From positions 1 through 41,992 of the forward strand of contig NZ_KB891219.1 in assembly GCF_000373365.1 (NCBI RefSeq): 41,992 bases of DNA. The letters are read 5' to 3'. A program made the position numbers and the translations under genes. Every line of letters starts with the position of its first letter. Positions within the stretch are counted from its first letter, which is position 1. The DNA is from Parafrankia discariae (GTDB lineage Bacteria; Actinomycetota; Actinomycetes; Frankiales; Frankiaceae). Below are positions 9,911-17,249 of this stretch, piece by piece. The notes below the pieces were generated by a model, which was not told the DNA's origin, did no database searches, and saw only the letters and a list, made by a program, of their open reading frames with translations.

Positions 9911-10327
9911 GTGCCCCTGCCACCGCTGGTCGACCTGGCCGCCTACCTCACGCGGACCGGGCAGGTCCTCGCTGACTTGGACATCGCTGAGCAGGCGCAG
10001 CTGACTGCCCTGCTCGGCGACGCCAGCGCCCTCGTACGCCTGGAGGCTGGCCTCGACTGGGTCGCCGGCGACGGGGTCACGGTGACCACGCCGGATGTGG
10101 TGGTGCCGGTCGTGGTCGCCATGGTCCGGCGCAGCACGGATAACCCCGAGGGGCTCACAGGGGAAACCCTGGGTGATCACAGCTGGCAGATGGGCAACGC
10201 GAGCGCTGACCTGTACCTGACCAAGGCCGAGACGAAGACGGTGCGCCGCGCCGCGGGCCGCGCCGGCTTCGGTTCCATCCAACTGGAGGGAGATCTGCCC
10301 GTGCAGCCGTCGGAGTGGTGTTGGTGA
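9911..10327 (+). CDS. Head-tail connector / adaptor protein (138 aa)
   Basis: Residues 1-80 (LPPLVDLAAYLTRTGQ, EQAQLTALLGDASALVRLEAG) form the helical bundle of gp6/gp15-like adaptors that dock on the portal. The TPDVVVPVVVAMVRR helix is characteristic. A less ordered C-terminal half with SADLYLTKAETKTVRRAAG follows. The GTG start is one base after the coat stop. It overlaps the next gene by 4 bases. Confidence 0.8.
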   Translation: MPLPPLVDLAAYLTRTGQVLADLDIAEQAQLTALLGDASALVRLEAGLDWVAGDGVTVTTPDVVVPVVVAMVRRSTDNPEGLTGETLGDHSWQMGNASADLYLTKAETKTVRRAAGRAGFGSIQLEGDLPVQPSEWCW

Positions 10328-10665: not shown

Positions 10666-10901
10666 AGCTCCCGCCTGGCCTCGTGACCGCTGGCGCGAAC
10701 TCGCGCTACTCGGTGCAGGGTGGGCAGCACCGGCACACCCGTGGGGGCGAGGCCGCGGCCGCGACCGCGCAGGACTGGGACGGGCAGGTCGCTGTCCTGC
10801 GGCGGATGCCGATGCCCAGCGCTCCGTCCATGGCGGCGGGTGTCTGCGGTAGCTGCGAGGGGCCTGTCGAGCTCGCTGGGTACTGCAGGTGCTCGGCATG
10901 A
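10662..10901 (+). CDS. Small phage protein with C-terminal zinc-knuckle-like motif (79 aa)
   Basis: GTG overlaps the preceding stop. The N-terminus is polar and disordered-looking (SRYSVQGGQHRHTRGGEA). The C-terminus holds four cysteines, CGSC then CRC (residues 62, 65, 76, 78), a plausible single zinc site. I do not know its function. It sits at the junction between head genes and the glycosyltransferase block. Confidence 0.6.
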   Translation: MKLPPGLVTAGANSRYSVQGGQHRHTRGGEAAAATAQDWDGQVAVLRRMPMPSAPSMAAGVCGSCEGPVELAGYCRCSA

Positions 10902-11569
10902 CCGACAGCACGGGTGCTGAGCTGACGATCCTGGTGCCGATGCTCGGCCGGCCACACCGCGTCGCCCCCCTGCTCATGTCTATCGGTACGACCGTCCCCG
11001 ACGCCGAGGTGCTGTGGCTGGTCACCCCAAGGGATCACACGGTCGTCGCCGAGATCGGCCGTGTGGGAGGCCGGGCGCTCGCGGTGCGGCACGACCGCGG
11101 CGACTACGCCCGAAAGATCAACACCGGGTACAGAGCGACCGACCGGCCGCTGCTGTTCCTCGGCGCCTCCGACCTGCTGTTCCGCCCCGGCTGGTACCAG
11201 GCCGCCCGCGCCCAGCTTGCCGCCGGCATCGGTGTCGTCGGAACCAACGACCTCGGCAGCCCGCGGGTGCTCGCCGGCGAGCATGCCACCCACAGCCTCG
11301 TCGCCAGGGCGTACGCCGACCAGCCAGGAGCGACCGCGGACCAGGCCGGTGAGGTGCTGCACGAGGGCTACTGGCACGAGTACTGCGACGACGAGCTCGT
11401 ACAGGTCGCCCGTGCTCGCGGCGCCTGGGCGTTCGCCGAGAACTCCCACGTCGAGCACCTGCACCCCGACTACCGGAAAGCGCCGGTAGACCGGCTGTAC
11501 CTGCAGCGCCGCCGGCGGATGCGGCAGGGCGAGCCGCTGTTCCGGGAGCGGGAGTCGCTGTGGACGTGA
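10898..11569 (+). CDS. Phage glycosyltransferase, GT-A fold (223 aa)
   Basis: The ATG at 10898 has a GCAGGT site 7 bases upstream; the GTG three codons earlier has none. The protein opens with a nucleotide-binding strand (LTILVPMLGRPHRV). It carries GDYARKINTGYRAT, which suits the sugar-nucleotide loop, and LLFLGASDLLFRPGWYQAA in place of a canonical DxD. The C-terminal EYCDDELV and HLHPDY resemble the acceptor end of GT2 enzymes. The substrate is unknown. It is the first of six such genes between head and tail modules. Confidence 0.7.
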   Translation: MTDSTGAELTILVPMLGRPHRVAPLLMSIGTTVPDAEVLWLVTPRDHTVVAEIGRVGGRALAVRHDRGDYARKINTGYRATDRPLLFLGASDLLFRPGWYQAARAQLAAGIGVVGTNDLGSPRVLAGEHATHSLVARAYADQPGATADQAGEVLHEGYWHEYCDDELVQVARARGAWAFAENSHVEHLHPDYRKAPVDRLYLQRRRRMRQGEPLFRERESLWT

Positions 11570-12171
11570 CCGTCGCCATCGGCACGTTCGGCCTGTCCTG
11601 GTGGTACGACCTCGCTGTCCGCCGGGCGATCCCGTCCGCTGAGGCGCTCGGCGTCCCCGTCGTCCACTACCACGCAGAGACCCTCCACGACGCCCGCAAC
11701 GGCGCCCTGGCCCTCGTCGACACCGAGTGGGTCATCCACCTGGACGCCGACGACGAGCTCGAGCCGGGCTACCTCGACGCCATGGCCGCCGGCACCGCCG
11801 ATGTCCGGGCGCCGGCGGTGCGCTATGTCCGCGGCCTCGGCCGGCTGCGCGCGAGCACCCCGGCTGTGCCGACCGTGGCCGGTCACAGCCACCACTGCCA
11901 GGCAGCCTGCCTGCTGCAGGGGAACTGGCTGGTCGTCGGCGCCCTCGTCCGCACCGATCTGGTCCGCCAGGTCGGCGGCTGGCGCGACTTCGACTGGTCC
12001 GAGGACTGGGATCTCTGGCTGCGCTGCCACCTCGCCGGCGCCAGCTTCGAGGCCATGCCCGCGGCGATCTACCGGGCCCACGTCCGCCCCGGCAGCCGGA
12101 ATCGGGCGCCGAGCAGGCAGACCCGGCTCGCCGCGCACCGCGCCATCGCGGCAGCGAACGGCATCCTGTGA
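11560..12171 (+). CDS. Family 2 glycosyltransferase (203 aa)
   Basis: GTG start overlaps the preceding gene by 10 bases. ARNGAL (45-50) and HLDADDELEPGY (60-71) give the classic GT2 sugar-nucleotide site with a D62-A-D64 metal motif. DWSEDWDLWLRC (145-156) supplies the ED catalytic motif. The enzyme should move a sugar from an NDP-sugar to a protein or glycan acceptor. No membrane segment is present, so it probably acts in the cytoplasm during virion assembly. Confidence 0.82.
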   Translation: MDVTVAIGTFGLSWWYDLAVRRAIPSAEALGVPVVHYHAETLHDARNGALALVDTEWVIHLDADDELEPGYLDAMAAGTADVRAPAVRYVRGLGRLRASTPAVPTVAGHSHHCQAACLLQGNWLVVGALVRTDLVRQVGGWRDFDWSEDWDLWLRCHLAGASFEAMPAAIYRAHVRPGSRNRAPSRQTRLAAHRAIAAANGIL

Positions 12172-12184
12172 GAGAGGACATCCA

Positions 12185-12352
12185 GTGGCTCACGTCGTGA
12201 ACGAGGACCAGCCGTCGCCTCCTGATCCCTGGAACCGTGCCGCGGCTGTCGCGGAGAAGCTCGAGGCGATGGCTGATCTGGCGCCCCGTGAGGAGGCCTT
12301 GCCTCTGCTGCGGGAGGCGGCGGCTATCTGGGTGACCCTGGCACGGGGCTGA
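12185..12352 (+). CDS. Hypothetical small phage protein (55 aa)
   Basis: GTG start about 7 bases after a GAGAGAGG ribosome site. The peptide is one polar segment (EDQPSPPDPWNRAA) followed by two amphipathic helices (AVAEKLEAMADLAPREEAL and LLREAAAIWVTLARG). Its size and location between two glycosyltransferase genes suggest a small partner, but nothing proves it. It is easy to miss because the frame lies inside a longer shadow. Confidence 0.55.
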   Translation: MAHVVNEDQPSPPDPWNRAAAVAEKLEAMADLAPREEALPLLREAAAIWVTLARG

Positions 12353-12357
12353 CCTCC

Positions 12358-13068
12358 GTGAACATCGCCGTGCTCGTGATGACCGACGGCCGCGACGACC
12401 TGCTCGACCGGACAATTCAGTCGGCCCAGTGGAACCTCGGTGGCCCGCTCGTCCGGTGGATGATCCACGACGACACCGGCGATGGCGACCATCGTGAGGT
12501 GCTCAGGAGGCGATACCCGCACGTTGAGCTGATCTCGGCGAGCAACCGCCGGGCTGGATTCGGCGGGTCCATCCGGTGGGCGTGGACAGTCCTCAGCCTC
12601 CAAGCTGAGGCCGCTGAGGTCGACTTCGTCTTCCACCTCGAAGACGACTTCGTCTTTCGCCAGCCGGTCGACCTGCGTGCGATGGCCGAGGTGCTCACCG
12701 CCAGCCCGCACCTCGCCCAGCTTGCGCTCCGCCGGCAGCCCTGGAACGACGCGGAACGGGCCGCTGGCGGCATCGTCGAGCAGCACCCCGGCAGCTACGT
12801 CGAGATCTCCGGCGACGACGACGGACACGCCTGGCTCGAGCACCGACGGTTCTTCACCACCAACCCCTGTCTCTACAGGGCCGCACTCTGTTCGACGGGC
12901 TGGCCGACGGGCGCCGAGTCGGAGGGCCGGTTCGGCCTCGGCCTGCTCGAGCGCGGTCTGCCCTGGGGAGTCCCCGGTCCGGCGGTCCGCTTCGGCTTCT
13001 GGGGCGCTCGAGACAGCGGCGAATGGGTGGAACACATCGGCCACCAGCGCGCAGGCACCGGCTACTGA
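12358..13068 (+). CDS. Phage glycosyltransferase, GT-A fold (236 aa)
   Basis: GTG start 5 bases after the previous stop. The N-terminus MNIAVLVMTDGRDDLLDRTI is the Rossmann-like donor strand. HLEDDFVF (93-100) supplies the acidic metal motif. The C-terminal half (FTTNPCLYRAALC, then RFGFWGARDSGEWVEHIGH) resembles phage-encoded glycosyltransferases seen in actinophage genomes. It ends by overlapping the stop of the oppositely oriented XRE gene by 7 bases. Confidence 0.72.
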   Translation: MNIAVLVMTDGRDDLLDRTIQSAQWNLGGPLVRWMIHDDTGDGDHREVLRRRYPHVELISASNRRAGFGGSIRWAWTVLSLQAEAAEVDFVFHLEDDFVFRQPVDLRAMAEVLTASPHLAQLALRRQPWNDAERAAGGIVEQHPGSYVEISGDDDGHAWLEHRRFFTTNPCLYRAALCSTGWPTGAESEGRFGLGLLERGLPWGVPGPAVRFGFWGARDSGEWVEHIGHQRAGTGY

Positions 13069-13343
13069 ATCACGGTCTCCACAGCCAGCATGATCGGGGA
13101 CGGATCGATGAGTTGCTCAGGCGAGACATCCAACGCCGCCGCGAGCGCAACCAGATCGTCGACGCTCAGCCCCCGCTCACCATGCTCGATCTTGGAGAGC
13201 CCCGTCGGCAGGATCGGGCGCCCGAGATCCGTCAGCCGTTCCGAGAGCTGCACGAGCGTCAGGCGCCGTGCCTTCCGCAGCTGCGTCACGCGACGGCGCA
13301 CTCGTTCGCCGGTAGTTCCCACCTCGAGTGGGTGCGTCCCCAT
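13062..13343 (-). CDS. XRE-family helix-turn-helix regulator (93 aa)
   Basis: Residues 13-80 form a Cro/C1-type HTH: RRVTQLRKARRLTLVQLSERL, then SKIEHGERGLSVDDLVALAAAL, and DVSPEQLIDP. It lies opposite to all surrounding structural genes. A 59-base gap separates it from the divergent secreted-protein gene, so it probably controls that promoter and is expressed in the lysogen. No GGAGG is seen before its ATG, so it may be leaderless. This arrangement is typical of an inserted accessory gene (moron). Confidence 0.8.
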   Translation of the reverse strand: MGTHPLEVGTTGERVRRRVTQLRKARRLTLVQLSERLTDLGRPILPTGLSKIEHGERGLSVDDLVALAAALDVSPEQLIDPSPIMLAVETVIQ

Positions 13344-13402
13344 ATCGGAAGGCTAGCCGTCCACGACAGCCGTCGGGATCGGCTACCGAGGAAGGGCGGG
13401 CA
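13344..13402. promoter_or_regulatory. Divergent intergenic region between XRE gene and secreted-protein gene
   Basis: This 59-base gap must hold the start signals of both genes. GGAAGGGCGGG ends shortly before the ATG at 13403. Short inverted matches (GGCTAGCCG and CGATCCCGAC/GTCGGGATCG-type arms) could be operator sites. I see no clear -35/-10 pair. Confidence 0.4.
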
Positions 13403-13885
13403 ATGATCCGTAAGAGAGGCACATCGTTGATCGCCGTACTCGCGGTGCTGGTCGTCTGCGTGGTTGCCGCCGCGGCGATCGCGCGCGCTGACCCGTTCGA
13501 TCCGACCAGCGGAACCGTCGCGGTGATGGCCAGCGGCGGGACGGTTTACGAGGACTACACCGCCGGTCCACAGAGCGTGAACGGCAGCGTCACCGTGGCG
13601 GCGGTGACGCTACCGGCCGGCCGGTACGAGCTGCTCGCCAAGGCTTGGGTCGACAATTCCCTCGGTTCCGAGTCCTTTATTCAGTGTGGCTTCGTCGATG
13701 GCATCGCCGGAAATGACAACACTCGCGCGAGCGCCGGCTCCGCCTACGTGACGATGATCGCTTCCGGTGCCTCCGAGTTCGCAGAGGAGACGGAAGTGGA
13801 GTATGTCTGTGCCAGCGATGCGGCGGTGGACGTGCATCGCGCCTTGCTGAAAGCCACCACCGTCAGCGCGATCGTCCTCCAGTGA
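13403..13885 (+). CDS. Secreted or membrane-anchored prophage protein (160 aa)
   Basis: The ATG at 13403 has GGAAGGG upstream and starts a clean signal sequence, MIRKRGTSLIAVLAVLVVCV, then AAAAIARADP with an A-R-A cleavage-like site near 29-31. The mature part is beta-rich and carries two cysteines (IQCGF and EYVCAS) that may pair. No family is recognised. It lies divergent from an XRE regulator. Possible roles are lysogenic conversion or superinfection exclusion at the surface. The stop overlaps the next GTG. Confidence 0.65.
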   Translation: MIRKRGTSLIAVLAVLVVCVVAAAAIARADPFDPTSGTVAVMASGGTVYEDYTAGPQSVNGSVTVAAVTLPAGRYELLAKAWVDNSLGSESFIQCGFVDGIAGNDNTRASAGSAYVTMIASGASEFAEETEVEYVCASDAAVDVHRALLKATTVSAIVLQ

Positions 13886-14490
13886 CCCATATACACAGCT
13901 GCATTGTCAGCTACAAACGGCGCAAACTTACCGAACGGACCCTCAAGAGCTACCTCGCCACGGTTACCGTGTCGTATTCCGTGGTAATCGTCGACAACGG
14001 CTCTCCGGCCGAGGTGACGGACTGGCTGGCAGCGCTGGACGTACCCGTAGTTCTTCTCGGCGAGAACCGGTATCCGGGCTACGCGACCAACCGGGGCTGG
14101 GAGTCGATGCCGCTCGAGACCACGCTGCTGCATCGGATCGATAACGACACCGAGTTCGTGCCTGGCTGGTGCGACCGGGTGCTCGCCGCGTTCACCGACC
14201 CGCAGGTCGGCCAGGTCGGCTTGGCCGCGGCCGGGGACGAGCCGTGGACATCGATGCCGTCCTGGCCGGTGGGCGGCAACTCGATCATTCGCCGGGAGCT
14301 GTACGACGCCGGGCTGCGCTACTCGGAACGGCCATGGACGGCGGACGGAACGATGGAGGACCACCAGCTGACGAAAGATGTGTGGGCGATGGGCTGGCAA
14401 CGCGGATGGGCGGCCGAGGCGATCGTCTACCTCGGCGGCGGCGACCCGGAGTACTACGAGCAGACCCGCCGGGCTCGGGGGCTGGCGTGA
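13882..14490 (+). CDS. Family 2 glycosyltransferase (202 aa)
   Basis: GTG overlaps the secreted-protein stop. SYSVVIVDNGSPAEV (31-45) is the donor-binding strand. GYATNRGWE and HRIDNDTEFVPGW supply the acidic DxD region (about 84-96). GGNSIIRRELYDAGLR and DGTMEDHQLTKDVW match the acceptor-loop ED motif. It looks catalytically complete. It is read together with the next GT gene, with a 4-base overlap. Confidence 0.85.
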   Translation: MTHIHSCIVSYKRRKLTERTLKSYLATVTVSYSVVIVDNGSPAEVTDWLAALDVPVVLLGENRYPGYATNRGWESMPLETTLLHRIDNDTEFVPGWCDRVLAAFTDPQVGQVGLAAAGDEPWTSMPSWPVGGNSIIRRELYDAGLRYSERPWTADGTMEDHQLTKDVWAMGWQRGWAAEAIVYLGGGDPEYYEQTRRARGLA

Positions 14491-15278
14491 CCGTCGTCGG
14501 GATCGCGATGGTGCGTGACGAGGCCGACATCATCGCCGGCACCCTGCGGCACATGGCAGGCGAAGTCGACCAGCTCCTGGTCGCTGACAACGGGTCGACC
14601 GACGGCACCCGGGAGATCCTCGACGCCCTCATCCCCGACCTACCGCTGGTCGTTGTCGACGATCGGGATCCTGCCTACTACCAGTCGGCGAAGATGACCA
14701 AGCTCGCTGGCATCGCGCACCGGCTGTTCGAGGCCACCTGGATCGTGCCGTTCGACGCCGACGAACTCTGGTACTCCCCGGCCGACCGGATCGCCGACGT
14801 CCTCACCGCCAGCCGCCGCCCCTACGCCGTCGCCGACCTGTACAACCACCTGGCGACCGCGCTCGACGAGCCCGGTGACGATCCGTTCCGGACGATGGTC
14901 TGGCGGCAGACCGATCCCGGCCCCCTGGGCAAGGTCGCGCTGCGCTGGCAGCCCGGTGCGGTGATCCATCAGGGCAACCACGGCGTCACCCTCCCCGCCG
15001 GCGGGCCGCCGCTCGAGGGCGCGCTGGCCGTTCGCCACTTCCCGGCGCGCAGCCCGCAGCAGTTCGCCCGCAAAGGCCGTAACGGCGCTGCGGCGTACGC
15101 GGCCGCACCCGACCTGCCCGAGCACGAAGGCGCCCACTGGCGTGCCTACGGCCGGCTCCACGCCCAAGGCGGCGACGAGCTGCTGCACGAGGTGTTCCGC
15201 GAACACTGGTGGTACCTCAGCCCGACCGACGCCGGCCTCCTCCGCGACCCCGCCCCCTACCGGTGGTGGGAGAGCTAA
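14487..15278 (+). CDS. Family 2 glycosyltransferase (263 aa)
   Basis: GTG 14487 overlaps the preceding stop (GTGA) and begins the conserved VVGIAMVRDEADIIAGTL. ADNGSTDGTREIL and VPFDADELWY supply the nucleotide site and DxD. The later NHGVTLPAGG and VRHFPARSPQQFARKG fit GT2 enzymes of the glycan-decorating type found in bacteria and phages. It is the longest of the six. Its last codons overlap the convergent gene at 15275 by 4 bases. Confidence 0.85.
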   Translation: MTVVGIAMVRDEADIIAGTLRHMAGEVDQLLVADNGSTDGTREILDALIPDLPLVVVDDRDPAYYQSAKMTKLAGIAHRLFEATWIVPFDADELWYSPADRIADVLTASRRPYAVADLYNHLATALDEPGDDPFRTMVWRQTDPGPLGKVALRWQPGAVIHQGNHGVTLPAGGPPLEGALAVRHFPARSPQQFARKGRNGAAAYAAAPDLPEHEGAHWRAYGRLHAQGGDELLHEVFREHWWYLSPTDAGLLRDPAPYRWWES

Positions 15279-15610
15279 GGCGTCAGTCCGACGGACGACC
15301 CGACCTGGCGCCACGCACCGCCCTCGTGCCGGTGCTCCTCCTCTGCCACCCCGGCCGGCGCGGTGGTGATCCGCTGCACGGCGTAGCCGATCGCCCGGTC
15401 GAGGTCGCTGTGCTGCTCGACGGTCACCCGAACCTTGGCCGTTGCACCGTCACGCCGACGGCCGCTCATGGTGACCGCGACCAGGCCCGAGTGCCTGTAC
15501 ACGCGGAATCCCTGATCGCCTTCCGGGAGAGCATCCGCCGGCACCTCCTCGGTGTCGTACTCGACCTCCATGTCCTGGATTTCTAGCAGGGGCTTCAGTT
15601 CCGAGCTCAT
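15275..15610 (-). CDS. Hypothetical protein, leftward (111 aa)
   Basis: The ATG at 15610 gives MSSELKPLLEIQDMEVEYDT and excludes an implausible longer N-terminus. The rest is beta-rich with an SGLVAVTMSGRRRDGATAKV segment, then RVTVEQHSDLDRAIGYAVQR. No family is recognised. It faces against the structural operon, converging on a glycosyltransferase gene. Like the XRE gene it may be expressed from its own promoter in the lysogen. Confidence 0.55.
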   Translation of the reverse strand: MSSELKPLLEIQDMEVEYDTEEVPADALPEGDQGFRVYRHSGLVAVTMSGRRRDGATAKVRVTVEQHSDLDRAIGYAVQRITTAPAGVAEEEHRHEGGAWRQVGSSVGLTP

Positions 15611-15653
15611 GCCTGCATCATCCCGCGCCCACCCGAGAACAGGAGAACTGATC

Positions 15654-15890
15654 ATGGACGACGCGATTCCGGGCGGCCCCGGGGAGTTCGACGACCGGCA
15701 CCCTGCGACCCTCGGCCTGCTGAAGTTCTTCACCTGGGCGCACCTGCCCGCCCACCTGCAGGAGGTCTCCCGGCCCCTCGGCGAGCTCGCCGAGCAGATG
15801 GTGCGCACCCTGCCTGACGGACCGGAGCTCACCGCCGGCCTCCGCAAATTGCTCGAGGCGAAGGACTGCTTCGTCCGGGCGGCGCTCTAA
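15654..15890 (+). CDS. Acb2/Tad1 hairpin-domain-like small protein (78 aa), candidate anti-defence sponge
   Basis: ATG has AGGAG 8 bases upstream. The C-terminal half is a two-helix hairpin: LQEVSRPLGELAEQMVRTLP, then GPELTAGLRKLLEAKDCFVR (about 35-75). The spacing of E-L-A, the LPxGxE turn and the K-L-x-E-A helix with a C-terminal xAA resembles the Acb2/Tad1 hairpin family. Characterised members bind cyclic nucleotides or related signals and blunt CBASS or Thoeris immunity. The resemblance is by eye only. Many actinophages carry such proteins without a tested role. The stop overlaps the next ATG by one base. Confidence 0.5.
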   Translation: MDDAIPGGPGEFDDRHPATLGLLKFFTWAHLPAHLQEVSRPLGELAEQMVRTLPDGPELTAGLRKLLEAKDCFVRAAL

Positions 15891-16171
15891 TGTCGATCCT
15901 CGTTCCTGCCGAGCAGCTTGACGCTGCTTATCGCGAGCGTGCCCATCTGGTCGCTCACCTCGCACGCGCGTATGAGGCGCACTGGGCGATCGACGAGGCC
16001 GAGCCCGAGTGGCCGGTGATCTGTATCCACACCCCGGCCGGCCAGCTGTGCTGGCATGTCAACCGTGCCGACATGGGCCTGTTCCCGCCCGGACTCGAAG
16101 AGCGTCCGTCGGACTGGGACGGCCACACCACAGAGGAGAAGTACGCCCGACTGGCCCAGCTCGGAGCATGA
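15890..16171 (+). CDS. Hypothetical phage protein (93 aa)
   Basis: ATG overlaps the previous TAA (TAATG), so the two are probably translated together. A helical first half (AAYRERAHLVAHLARAYEAH) is followed by a beta segment (WPVICIHTPAGQLCWHVN) and the ending DWDGHTTEEKYARLAQL. I have a general memory of this ending in small actinophage and actinobacterial proteins, with no known function. Cys42 and Cys53 flank the beta turn. Confidence 0.6.
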   Translation: MSILVPAEQLDAAYRERAHLVAHLARAYEAHWAIDEAEPEWPVICIHTPAGQLCWHVNRADMGLFPPGLEERPSDWDGHTTEEKYARLAQLGA

Positions 16172-16872
16172 CGCGGGTCGCGGTCGTCGTCCCCTGGCGG
16201 CCGGATGGCGGCGAGCGGGACCGCCACTGGCAGTGGCTCGCTGACCGCTGGCGCACCACCTTCCCGGAGTGGGAGCTGCGGGTCGGCGAGCTACCGGCCT
16301 CGGTCGGGCCCTGGTGCAAGGCGGCCGCGGTCGCCCGGGCGCTCGAGGGCTGCACCGCCGACGTGCTGGTCGTCGCCGACGCCGACGTGTGGGCCACGCC
16401 CACCGACACGGTCACCAGGGCGGCCGCGTTGGCTGCCGGCGGCGCGCCGTGGGTGATGCCTCACCGGCAGGTCCGCCGCCTCACCGCGGCCGCGTCCGCT
16501 CGGGTGCTCGCCGGCGAGGCGCTCGAGGTTGTCGGCGCCGCCCGCCAGGCGCTCGCCGAGCGGCCCTACCCGGGGATGCGCGGTGGTGGCCTGTTCGCGA
16601 TCCGCCGCGAGGCCTTCGAGGACATGGGGGGCTTTGACCCCCGTTTCCGTGGCTGGGGTGGCGAGGACGCAGCGTTCGGTCGGGCCGCCGACACCCTGCT
16701 CGGTGAGGTGGTTCGCCTCCCCGGCGTGCTGTGGCATCTGTGGCATCCGCCGCAGGAACGGATCAGCCGCACCATCGGCTCCGAGCAGTCCTACCAGCTC
16801 GCCGGCCGCTACCGCGCCGCTCGCCGGGATCGCCGCGCGATGCGGACGTTGATCGAGGAAAGGGCCCGCTGA
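16168..16872 (+). CDS. Glycosyltransferase with GT2/GT7-like C-terminus (234 aa)
   Basis: The ATG at 16168 overlaps the preceding stop and starts TRVAVVVPWRPDGGERDRHW, the donor strand. VVADADVWATP (about 70-80) holds the DxD. GWGGEDAAFGRAAD (about 166-180) is the conserved GWGxED motif of galactosyltransferase-like C-terminal domains. The catalytic motifs look complete. The stop overlaps the tail-completion gene by one base, so this enzyme is firmly embedded in the structural operon. Confidence 0.85.
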   Translation: MTRVAVVVPWRPDGGERDRHWQWLADRWRTTFPEWELRVGELPASVGPWCKAAAVARALEGCTADVLVVADADVWATPTDTVTRAAALAAGGAPWVMPHRQVRRLTAAASARVLAGEALEVVGAARQALAERPYPGMRGGGLFAIRREAFEDMGGFDPRFRGWGGEDAAFGRAADTLLGEVVRLPGVLWHLWHPPQERISRTIGSEQSYQLAGRYRAARRDRRAMRTLIEERAR

Positions 16873-17249
16873 TGGCGCGACGTGGCCAGGCGGTTCGCAT
16901 CGAAGGCCTCAAAGAGCTGCGTGACGCAATCGGCCGTATCGAGGGGCAGGTGCTCCGCGGGATCCGCCGCGCTGTTGAGCAGTCCGTTGAGGCCGTCCAG
17001 GCCGACGCCGAGCGCCGCGCTCCGGTCCGTACCGGAGATCTGCAACAGGTCGGGATCGGTTCGCAGGTCGACGGCGACGGCCTGGGCGGCGATGTCGGGT
17101 TCACCGGCGACGGCTTCTACGGCCACTTCGTCGAGTTCGGAACGTCGCATTCCCCAGCTCAGCCGATGCTCGGCCCGGCCGCCGAGGCTGAGCGCGCCGA
17201 GCTGCCCCGCCGTATGACTCGCGAGATCAGCCGCGAGCTCGGAGCCTGA
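16872..17249 (+). CDS. Tail completion / head-tail joining protein, HK97 gp10-like (125 aa)
   Basis: The ATG at 16872 overlaps the previous stop. The sequence RIEGLKELRDAIGRIEGQVL, RAPVRTGDLQQVG, GFTGDGFYGHFVEFGTSHSP and QPMLGPA is the standard pattern of HK97-gp10/minor-capsid neck proteins. In particular, the H-FVEFGTS segment and the following proline motif are conserved. The protein joins the tail tube to the head connector and marks the return to the structural module after the accessory block. Confidence 0.88.
   Translation: MARRGQAVRIEGLKELRDAIGRIEGQVLRGIRRAVEQSVEAVQADAERRAPVRTGDLQQVGIGSQVDGDGLGGDVGFTGDGFYGHFVEFGTSHSPAQPMLGPAAEAERAELPRRMTREISRELGA

Follow-up and report, generated by a model that had tools for sequence, protein, structure and literature searches.

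What does a 78-aa protein do whose gene stands within a phage head-to-tail gene run? The gene (15654..15890 including the stop codon, plus strand) lies in a window of 41,992 nucleotides, which is the whole stretch of DNA that was analysed. A preliminary description had called the product (P0001) a candidate Acb2/Tad1-type sponge. The likeliest reading, which we put at a probability of about one half, is that P0001 would act, by analogy, as a nucleotide-signal sponge that works like Acb2. We prefer it because of the recurrence of weak matches to the Acb2/Tad1 profile (PF24729), the predicted helix topology, and coinciding genome positions; membership in the Acb2/Tad1 family, however, is not established. 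That the protein serves counter-defence of some kind, whether as a sponge or by binding a protein, seems probable.

The gene is supported by its open reading frame, by PHROG and tblastn matches, and by an AlphaFold2 model. It runs from an ATG at 15654 to a TAA at 15888-15890, and a likely ribosome-binding site, AGGAG, can be read just upstream (15641..15645, plus strand). The upstream head run comprises the terminase large subunit (4602), portal (6270), maturation protease (7607), scaffold (8440), major head protein (9028), and head-tail adaptor Ad1 (9911-10327). A run of glycosyltransferase genes begins after Ad1 at 10889, and an HK97-gp10-like gene (HK97-gp10 / tail-completion protein, 16872-17249) follows downstream. 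Between Ad1 and the HK97-gp10-like gene is a cargo region (10889..16872) that holds, besides the candidate and the glycosyltransferase genes, an HTH gene on the minus strand and a gene for a WDGH-domain protein; glycosyltransferase genes flank the candidate at 14490-15278 and 16168-16872. As the phage head-to-tail run surrounds the candidate, we regard the gene as cargo inside a structural operon, so the location given in the preliminary description is borne out. An identical stretch (100%) occurs in an IMG/VR contig (L008). (For a minus-strand ORF of 111 aa at 15275-15610, which lies just before the candidate gene and diverges from it, neither Pfam nor PHROG gave a match at E up to 0.1.)

That the gene is real, as first described, is evident from its relatives. 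P0001 matches PHROG 5120 (E 9e-31) and PHROG 1761 (E 1e-29), both of which are function-less entries; the PHROG 1761 profile has an extra N-terminal part that is absent from P0001, and the match falls at positions 76-138 of 148. A tblastn search of 50,697 phage records found relatives in 365, with an identity of 60-80% in 220 and below 60% in 145; these are records for Vibrio (99), Mycobacterium (53), Erwinia (48), Acinetobacter (43), Brevibacterium (32), Gordonia (30), and others. The family is also found in 25 of 72,556 plasmid records. Of 268 pattern matches in species genomes, 197 encode a relative; among the 80 that were kept, the record titles name Actinomycetota, Pseudomonadota, Cyanobacteriota, Bacillota, Chloroflexota, Verrucomicrobiota, and Gemmatimonadota, with the proviso that several are metagenome-assembled genomes whose phylum assignment may be wrong. 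Within the phylum of the source genome, 4 of 296 genomes carry the family, the source genome included. Searches of Pfam, NCBIfam, and PADLOC with P0001 found nothing, and the sole phmmer match in the PDB was one designed protein (E 0.52). Our literature search found no paper on the family, although it is possibly named in 2026 sponge work cited by PMC13232231; queries with the two PHROG numbers, crAss001_48, PF21825, and two motif strings likewise found nothing.

The conserved part of the family is a 57-aa core, residues 22-78 (15717..15887, plus strand), which we compared across 331 distinct relatives. Nine of its polar residues are conserved at 95-100%: H30, S39, E58, R64, K65, E68, K70, D71, and R75. 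By position, conservation is 100% (rounded) for E58, L66, and K70, 99% for H30, L31, E68, and D71, 98% for S39, V74, and R75, and 95% for R64 and K65.

The AlphaFold2 model of P0001 (72 sequences) has a mean pLDDT of 91.4 and a pTM of 0.80, and its helices at residues 17-26, 33-52, and 57-77 form a short helix plus a two-helix hairpin. The hairpin at the end of the protein, as first described, is thus predicted with high confidence; its helices are alpha1 (residues 33-52, 15750..15809, plus strand) and alpha2 (residues 57-77, 15822..15884, plus strand). From their spacing, R64, E68, D71, and R75 should lie on one face of alpha2. If there is a pocket, we would look for it first in the charged conserved strip of alpha2 together with H30 and S39.

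This same strip bears on a rival explanation, in which the protein counters defence by binding a host or defence protein instead of a small signal molecule, as the strip could equally be a protein interface. In the same vein, Tad2-like, Lar, and RyR neighbours (2, 2, and 1 of 124 downstream genes, see below) argue for counter-defence but not for a ligand. However, nine polar residues that are conserved in relatives from many phyla would be better explained by an invariant ligand than by a protein partner that evolves fast, and the weak yet recurrent PF24729 signal (5 of 47 sequences, as against 0 of 47 reversed ones) also speaks against this rival. We consider a protein-binding function unlikely.

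How closely does P0001, as a putative sponge, resemble Acb2? Acb2 is described (PMC12043709) as a pair of long antiparallel helices preceded by a short helix at the N-terminus, and the model of P0001 has this topology. As the arrangement is a common one, the likeness of a predicted structure to Acb2 is weak evidence. Tad1 also has a C-terminal two-helix hairpin (PMC12043709), but in Tad1 an N-terminal antiparallel beta-sheet precedes it, whereas the P0001 model has no strands. Tad2-like proteins (PF11195) are different again: Tad2 is a tetramer of sheets and helices (PMC12043709). In the models, alpha1 is 20 residues long in P0001 and 25 in Acb2 (a short true Acb2 has predicted helices at 10-34 and 41-63).

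Structure searches gave a mixed picture. With the P0001 model as the query, the first six Foldseek matches in BFVD were apparent relatives (27-58% identity). Two proteins named as Acb2/Tad1-hairpin proteins were among the best 50 of 95 matches, one ranking 8th (probability 0.96, E 0.44) and the other 22nd (probability 0.57, E 4.4). A fold search of the PDB gave no significant match, and Acb2 (8h2j, 7uq2) was not among the matches listed. As a positive control, the model of a true Acb2 returned 8h2j, 8h2x, and 7uq2 first (Z of 8.6, 8.5, and 8.4). The best 50 of the 492 BFVD matches of the true Acb2 model included none of the six apparent relatives that head the P0001 list. One Acb2/Tad1-hairpin protein, A0A8S5NKU4, was among the matches listed for both models.

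Like Acb2 (anti-CBASS 2; p26 of Pseudomonas phages, Vs.4 of T4; PF24729), P0001 is a small phage protein. By our comparison, both conserve (I/V)-R towards the end of alpha2, and five positions before alpha1 the residue is aromatic in 95% of the PHROG 5120/1761 family, where Acb2 has an invariant tyrosine. Apart from these, the invariant residues of the family differ from those of Acb2. The profile search that the preliminary description had proposed went against it: P0001 had no match to PF24729 at E up to 1, and so falls short of the curated cut-off, while T4 Vs.4 as a control scored E 7e-20. Under the curated definition, P0001 is not an Acb2/Tad1-hairpin protein.

Nevertheless, PF24729 recurs among the relatives. 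In a Pfam scan of 47 diverse members (P0001 and 46 relatives), 5 matched PF24729 weakly (best E 0.0071); six other families had one match each, so PF24729 alone recurs. Reversed copies of the 47 matched ten families once each and PF24729 in none. Among 72 closer relatives, there were 2 matches (best E 0.12). We see the recurrence as a hint of remote homology at the sequence level, not as proof. Profile-profile comparison did not strengthen it: hhalign runs of the family against p26/Acb2 alignments gave probabilities of 0.13%, 1.19%, 1.25%, and 0.44%, which is noise. In the 1.25% run (P 0.042), 6 of 100 column shuffles reached the score and the reversed profile scored higher. Also, HMMs of Acb2 and of the family did not pick each other above background. 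The family may be a very remote branch of Acb2/Tad1, and P0001 is either a very remote homologue or an independent look-alike.

Matches to PF24729 were absent from the source genome (0/1), from the 296 genomes of the phylum, and from 50 virus records that carry the family, but control genomes were equally without a match in each of these searches, so the zeros do not imply absence. (Acb2 annotations do exist in actinophages; PMC13348362.) The source genome also had no match (0/1) to AGS_C. We take AGS_C (PF18134) to be a CBASS-associated domain.

The best profile match in the PDB was to another kind of protein, the tail sheath Gp22 of phage P1 (8jaj, residues 426-471; E 0.0034 and 0.00058). 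The Gp22 stretch scored 29.9 bits, as compared to at most 9.4 among 2000 shuffles (1,871 of 2,001 sequences scored). However, a designed helical protein scored nearly as well (E 0.0027), and the Gp22 stretch opens domain I, whose fold is common to the sheath proteins of other phages (PMC10304247). For these two reasons we take the likeness to be due to chance, though as a sequence match it still counts against the Acb2 reading.

Gp22 also raises the question of whether P0001 is an accessory protein for head or tail assembly. The gene lies between head and tail genes in the window, in several phages it is flanked by portal, minor head, scaffold, or terminase genes, and in one locus (L148) it runs in frame into what we presume to be a head maturation protease. 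But in Brevibacterium phage AGM3 it adjoins genes for a holin and an endolysin, and in Henu6 it has a topoisomerase gene on one side and an RNA ligase gene on the other; in Adawi, it is near genes annotated as RNaseE and HNH, with one "structural protein" four places upstream. Also, 46 of 49 sequences of one slot lack the gene, and true Acb2 occupies the same slots. (Acb2 is a sponge and not part of the virion.) Its occurrence next to lysis, replication-type, and other genes makes a structural role very unlikely in our view.

The sponge reading draws on these shared slots. We compared the flanks of 80 Acb2 loci with those of PHROG 5120/1761 loci, omitting BLAST matches under 60 aa. Both flanks matched in 15 pairs, and the family gene and Acb2 were in the same two-gene interval in 9 of these but not in the other 6. 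The nine pairs represent four head-module contexts, with gene labels as read from the sequences. The first context is minor head, slot, scaffold-like gene, and capsid (Acb2 in L172, the family in L507 and L161; flanks 57-71% identical). It includes the best pair, L172 and L507, whose flanks are 57% and 71% identical, and its scaffold-like protein is named DUF6651 in a relative. The second is portal, slot, and minor head of the Mu type (Acb2 in L195/L204, the family in L368/L414; 28-50%). The third is portal, slot, and scaffold (Acb2 in L208, the family in L262; 29-36%). The fourth is terminase, slot, and portal (Acb2 in L233, the family in L416/L160; 32-48%). The six exceptions come from two contexts: L508, where both flanks are upstream, and L247, where the same Tad2-containing neighbourhood has a changed gene order. 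There is also a one-sided case, with a portal gene before the slot, in L205 (Acb2) and L473/L511 (the family) at about 26% flank identity; here L207 repeats the BLAST match of L205 and L206 matches L511 only. In Acinetobacter phage vB_AbaS_SA1, a 192-bp gene for a "hypothetical protein" overlaps the family match in the minor head-scaffold slot. As for Acb2 itself, in JBD67 its gene adjoins a PF07030 (Mu Gp36 family) gene in a region of virion genes, and in PaMx35 it is near pyrophosphohydrolase and primase genes.

For the minor head-scaffold slot we surveyed 83 loci, 55 of which had both flanks, and these gave 49 distinct sequences. The PHROG 5120/1761 family was present in 3 (two of them seeds), Acb2 in 2 (one a seed), Tad2-like in 2, and crAss001_48 in 1. 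A Pfam scan of 46 of the 90 slot ORFs found Gp49_66 (8), PF24729 (3), Tad2-like (2), crAss001_48 (1), SieB (1), and four other families once each. The presence of Gp49_66 and SieB, and the fact that 41 of the 49 sequences match none of our five HMMs, count against the sponge reading. (Gp49_66, at 8 of 46 ORFs, is the commonest Pfam family in this slot, L517-L596.)

The neighbours of the family gene are diverse, and we looked for a single frequent partner gene but did not find one. Removal of near copies and long ones reduced 181 downstream neighbours to 163, of which 124 were scanned; the upstream set went from 162 to 137, and again 124 were scanned. Downstream (25 of 33 families listed), Pfam matches were to Amidase_2 (4), Tad2-like (2), r1t-type holin (2), and Lar anti-restriction (2), with RyR, WDGH, crAss001_48, and others once each. 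Upstream, they were to Amidase_2 (6), AAA_24 (2), and others once each. RyR-domain phage proteins are described as degrading or sequestering Thoeris signals (PMC13232231).

In the window, the downstream neighbour is the WDGH-domain protein (15890..16171, plus strand; PF25311, E 2.2e-8, above the cut-off), and the start of its gene overlaps the stop of the candidate gene (TAATG). The preliminary description had suggested that the two genes form a counter-defence pair. Such pairing is rare: by Pfam, WDGH is 1 of the 124 neighbours scanned downstream, and by HMM it lies beside the family gene in 2 of 332 distinct loci, one of which is the same prophage. We therefore hold to the idea only weakly. 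Our literature search found nothing that links "WDGH domain" with phage.

Tad2-like genes are also infrequent, but when present they are close by. In searches of whole records (50 of 134 loci used), a Tad2-like gene was found in 2 of 50, each time directly beside the family gene. With a local HMM, 8 of 332 distinct-core loci have one, always on the same strand (3 upstream and 5 downstream), and it is within 250 bp in 7 of them and at 924 bp in the other. Under random placement, which was limited to the 8 loci that have a Tad2-like match, a mean of 0.92 fell within 250 bp, and at least 7 did so in 0 of 100,000 runs. The same neighbours occur in true Acb2 loci: of 82, 3 have a Tad2-like gene and 4 have crAss001_48, with one near-duplicate pair in each count. 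In a reverse survey of 75 distinct loci seeded from Tad2-like genes, 2 had a member of the PHROG 5120/1761 family, within 300 bp in each case (p 0.016), and one of these 2 is the seed record. Acb2 was in 4, with 3 within 300 bp (p 0.0125), although three of its matches are weak (E 9e-5 to 5e-4). crAss001_48 was in 13, with 7 within 300 bp (p 0.0012). Part of both the Tad2 adjacency and the sharing of slots may reflect a general habit of small phage cargo genes.

In 7 distinct loci (L113, L116, L362, L365, L366, L371, and L374), the hairpin continues in frame into a crAss001_48-type helical domain, which occurs elsewhere in 4 more. This domain may itself be a counter-defence domain. Such fusions, together with a zinc-ribbon-like stretch in L164 and the very wide spread and strong conservation of the family, could instead suggest a general host-takeover or regulatory protein with no connection to immune signals. 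This seems distinctly unlikely to us because of the adjacency to Tad2-like genes and the interchange with Acb2.

If P0001 is indeed a sponge like Acb2, then the gene would be phage cargo for counter-defence, with P0001 in the place of Acb2. Its small helical product would oligomerise via the two-helix hairpin and would bind and hold a nucleotide immune signal. The signal could come from CBASS (a cyclic di- or trinucleotide) or from Thoeris (an ADP-ribose signal). With the signal held, the host's death effector would stay off. More tentatively, we propose that the whole PHROG 5120/1761 family is a new and very widespread family of helical sponges that replaces Acb2 in its slots, some members being fused to, or paired with, Tad2-like and crAss001_48 domains, which are probably other small counter-defence domains. 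Acb1 and Acb2 are described as relatively rare, and Acb4, with over 1,300 members, as the largest anti-CBASS family at the time (PMC11722364, a preprint of December 2024). A helical sponge family this common and conserved would, if confirmed, be a large missing piece. Because its members are short and have clear invariant residues, the family is directly testable. The positional argument, the same slot with a different sponge, may also help to find further counter-defence genes.

A few of the loci have unusual architectures. In Ochrobactrum phage vB_OspP_OH, gp62 (L164:765-1133) has a zinc-ribbon-like N-terminal stretch before the hairpin, and this stretch has weak matches to DUF5351, DnaJ, and Anti-TRAP. 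The hairpin ORF that starts from 4371 in L148 continues for 558 residues in frame. At about 3259-3471 in L031, the hairpin is fused in frame to a further stretch, which we take to resemble a multiubiquitin domain. Finally, three proteins of the minor head-scaffold slot (L544:1731-2348, L539:1523-2053, and L541:1525-2055) are mutually 44-45% identical where aligned. L544 carries at its end a stretch of Acb2/Tad1 hairpin (PF24729 E 1.2e-5, just below the cut-off) while L539 and L541 end in a Tad2-like domain, an apparent swap of sponge domains to judge from these sequences.
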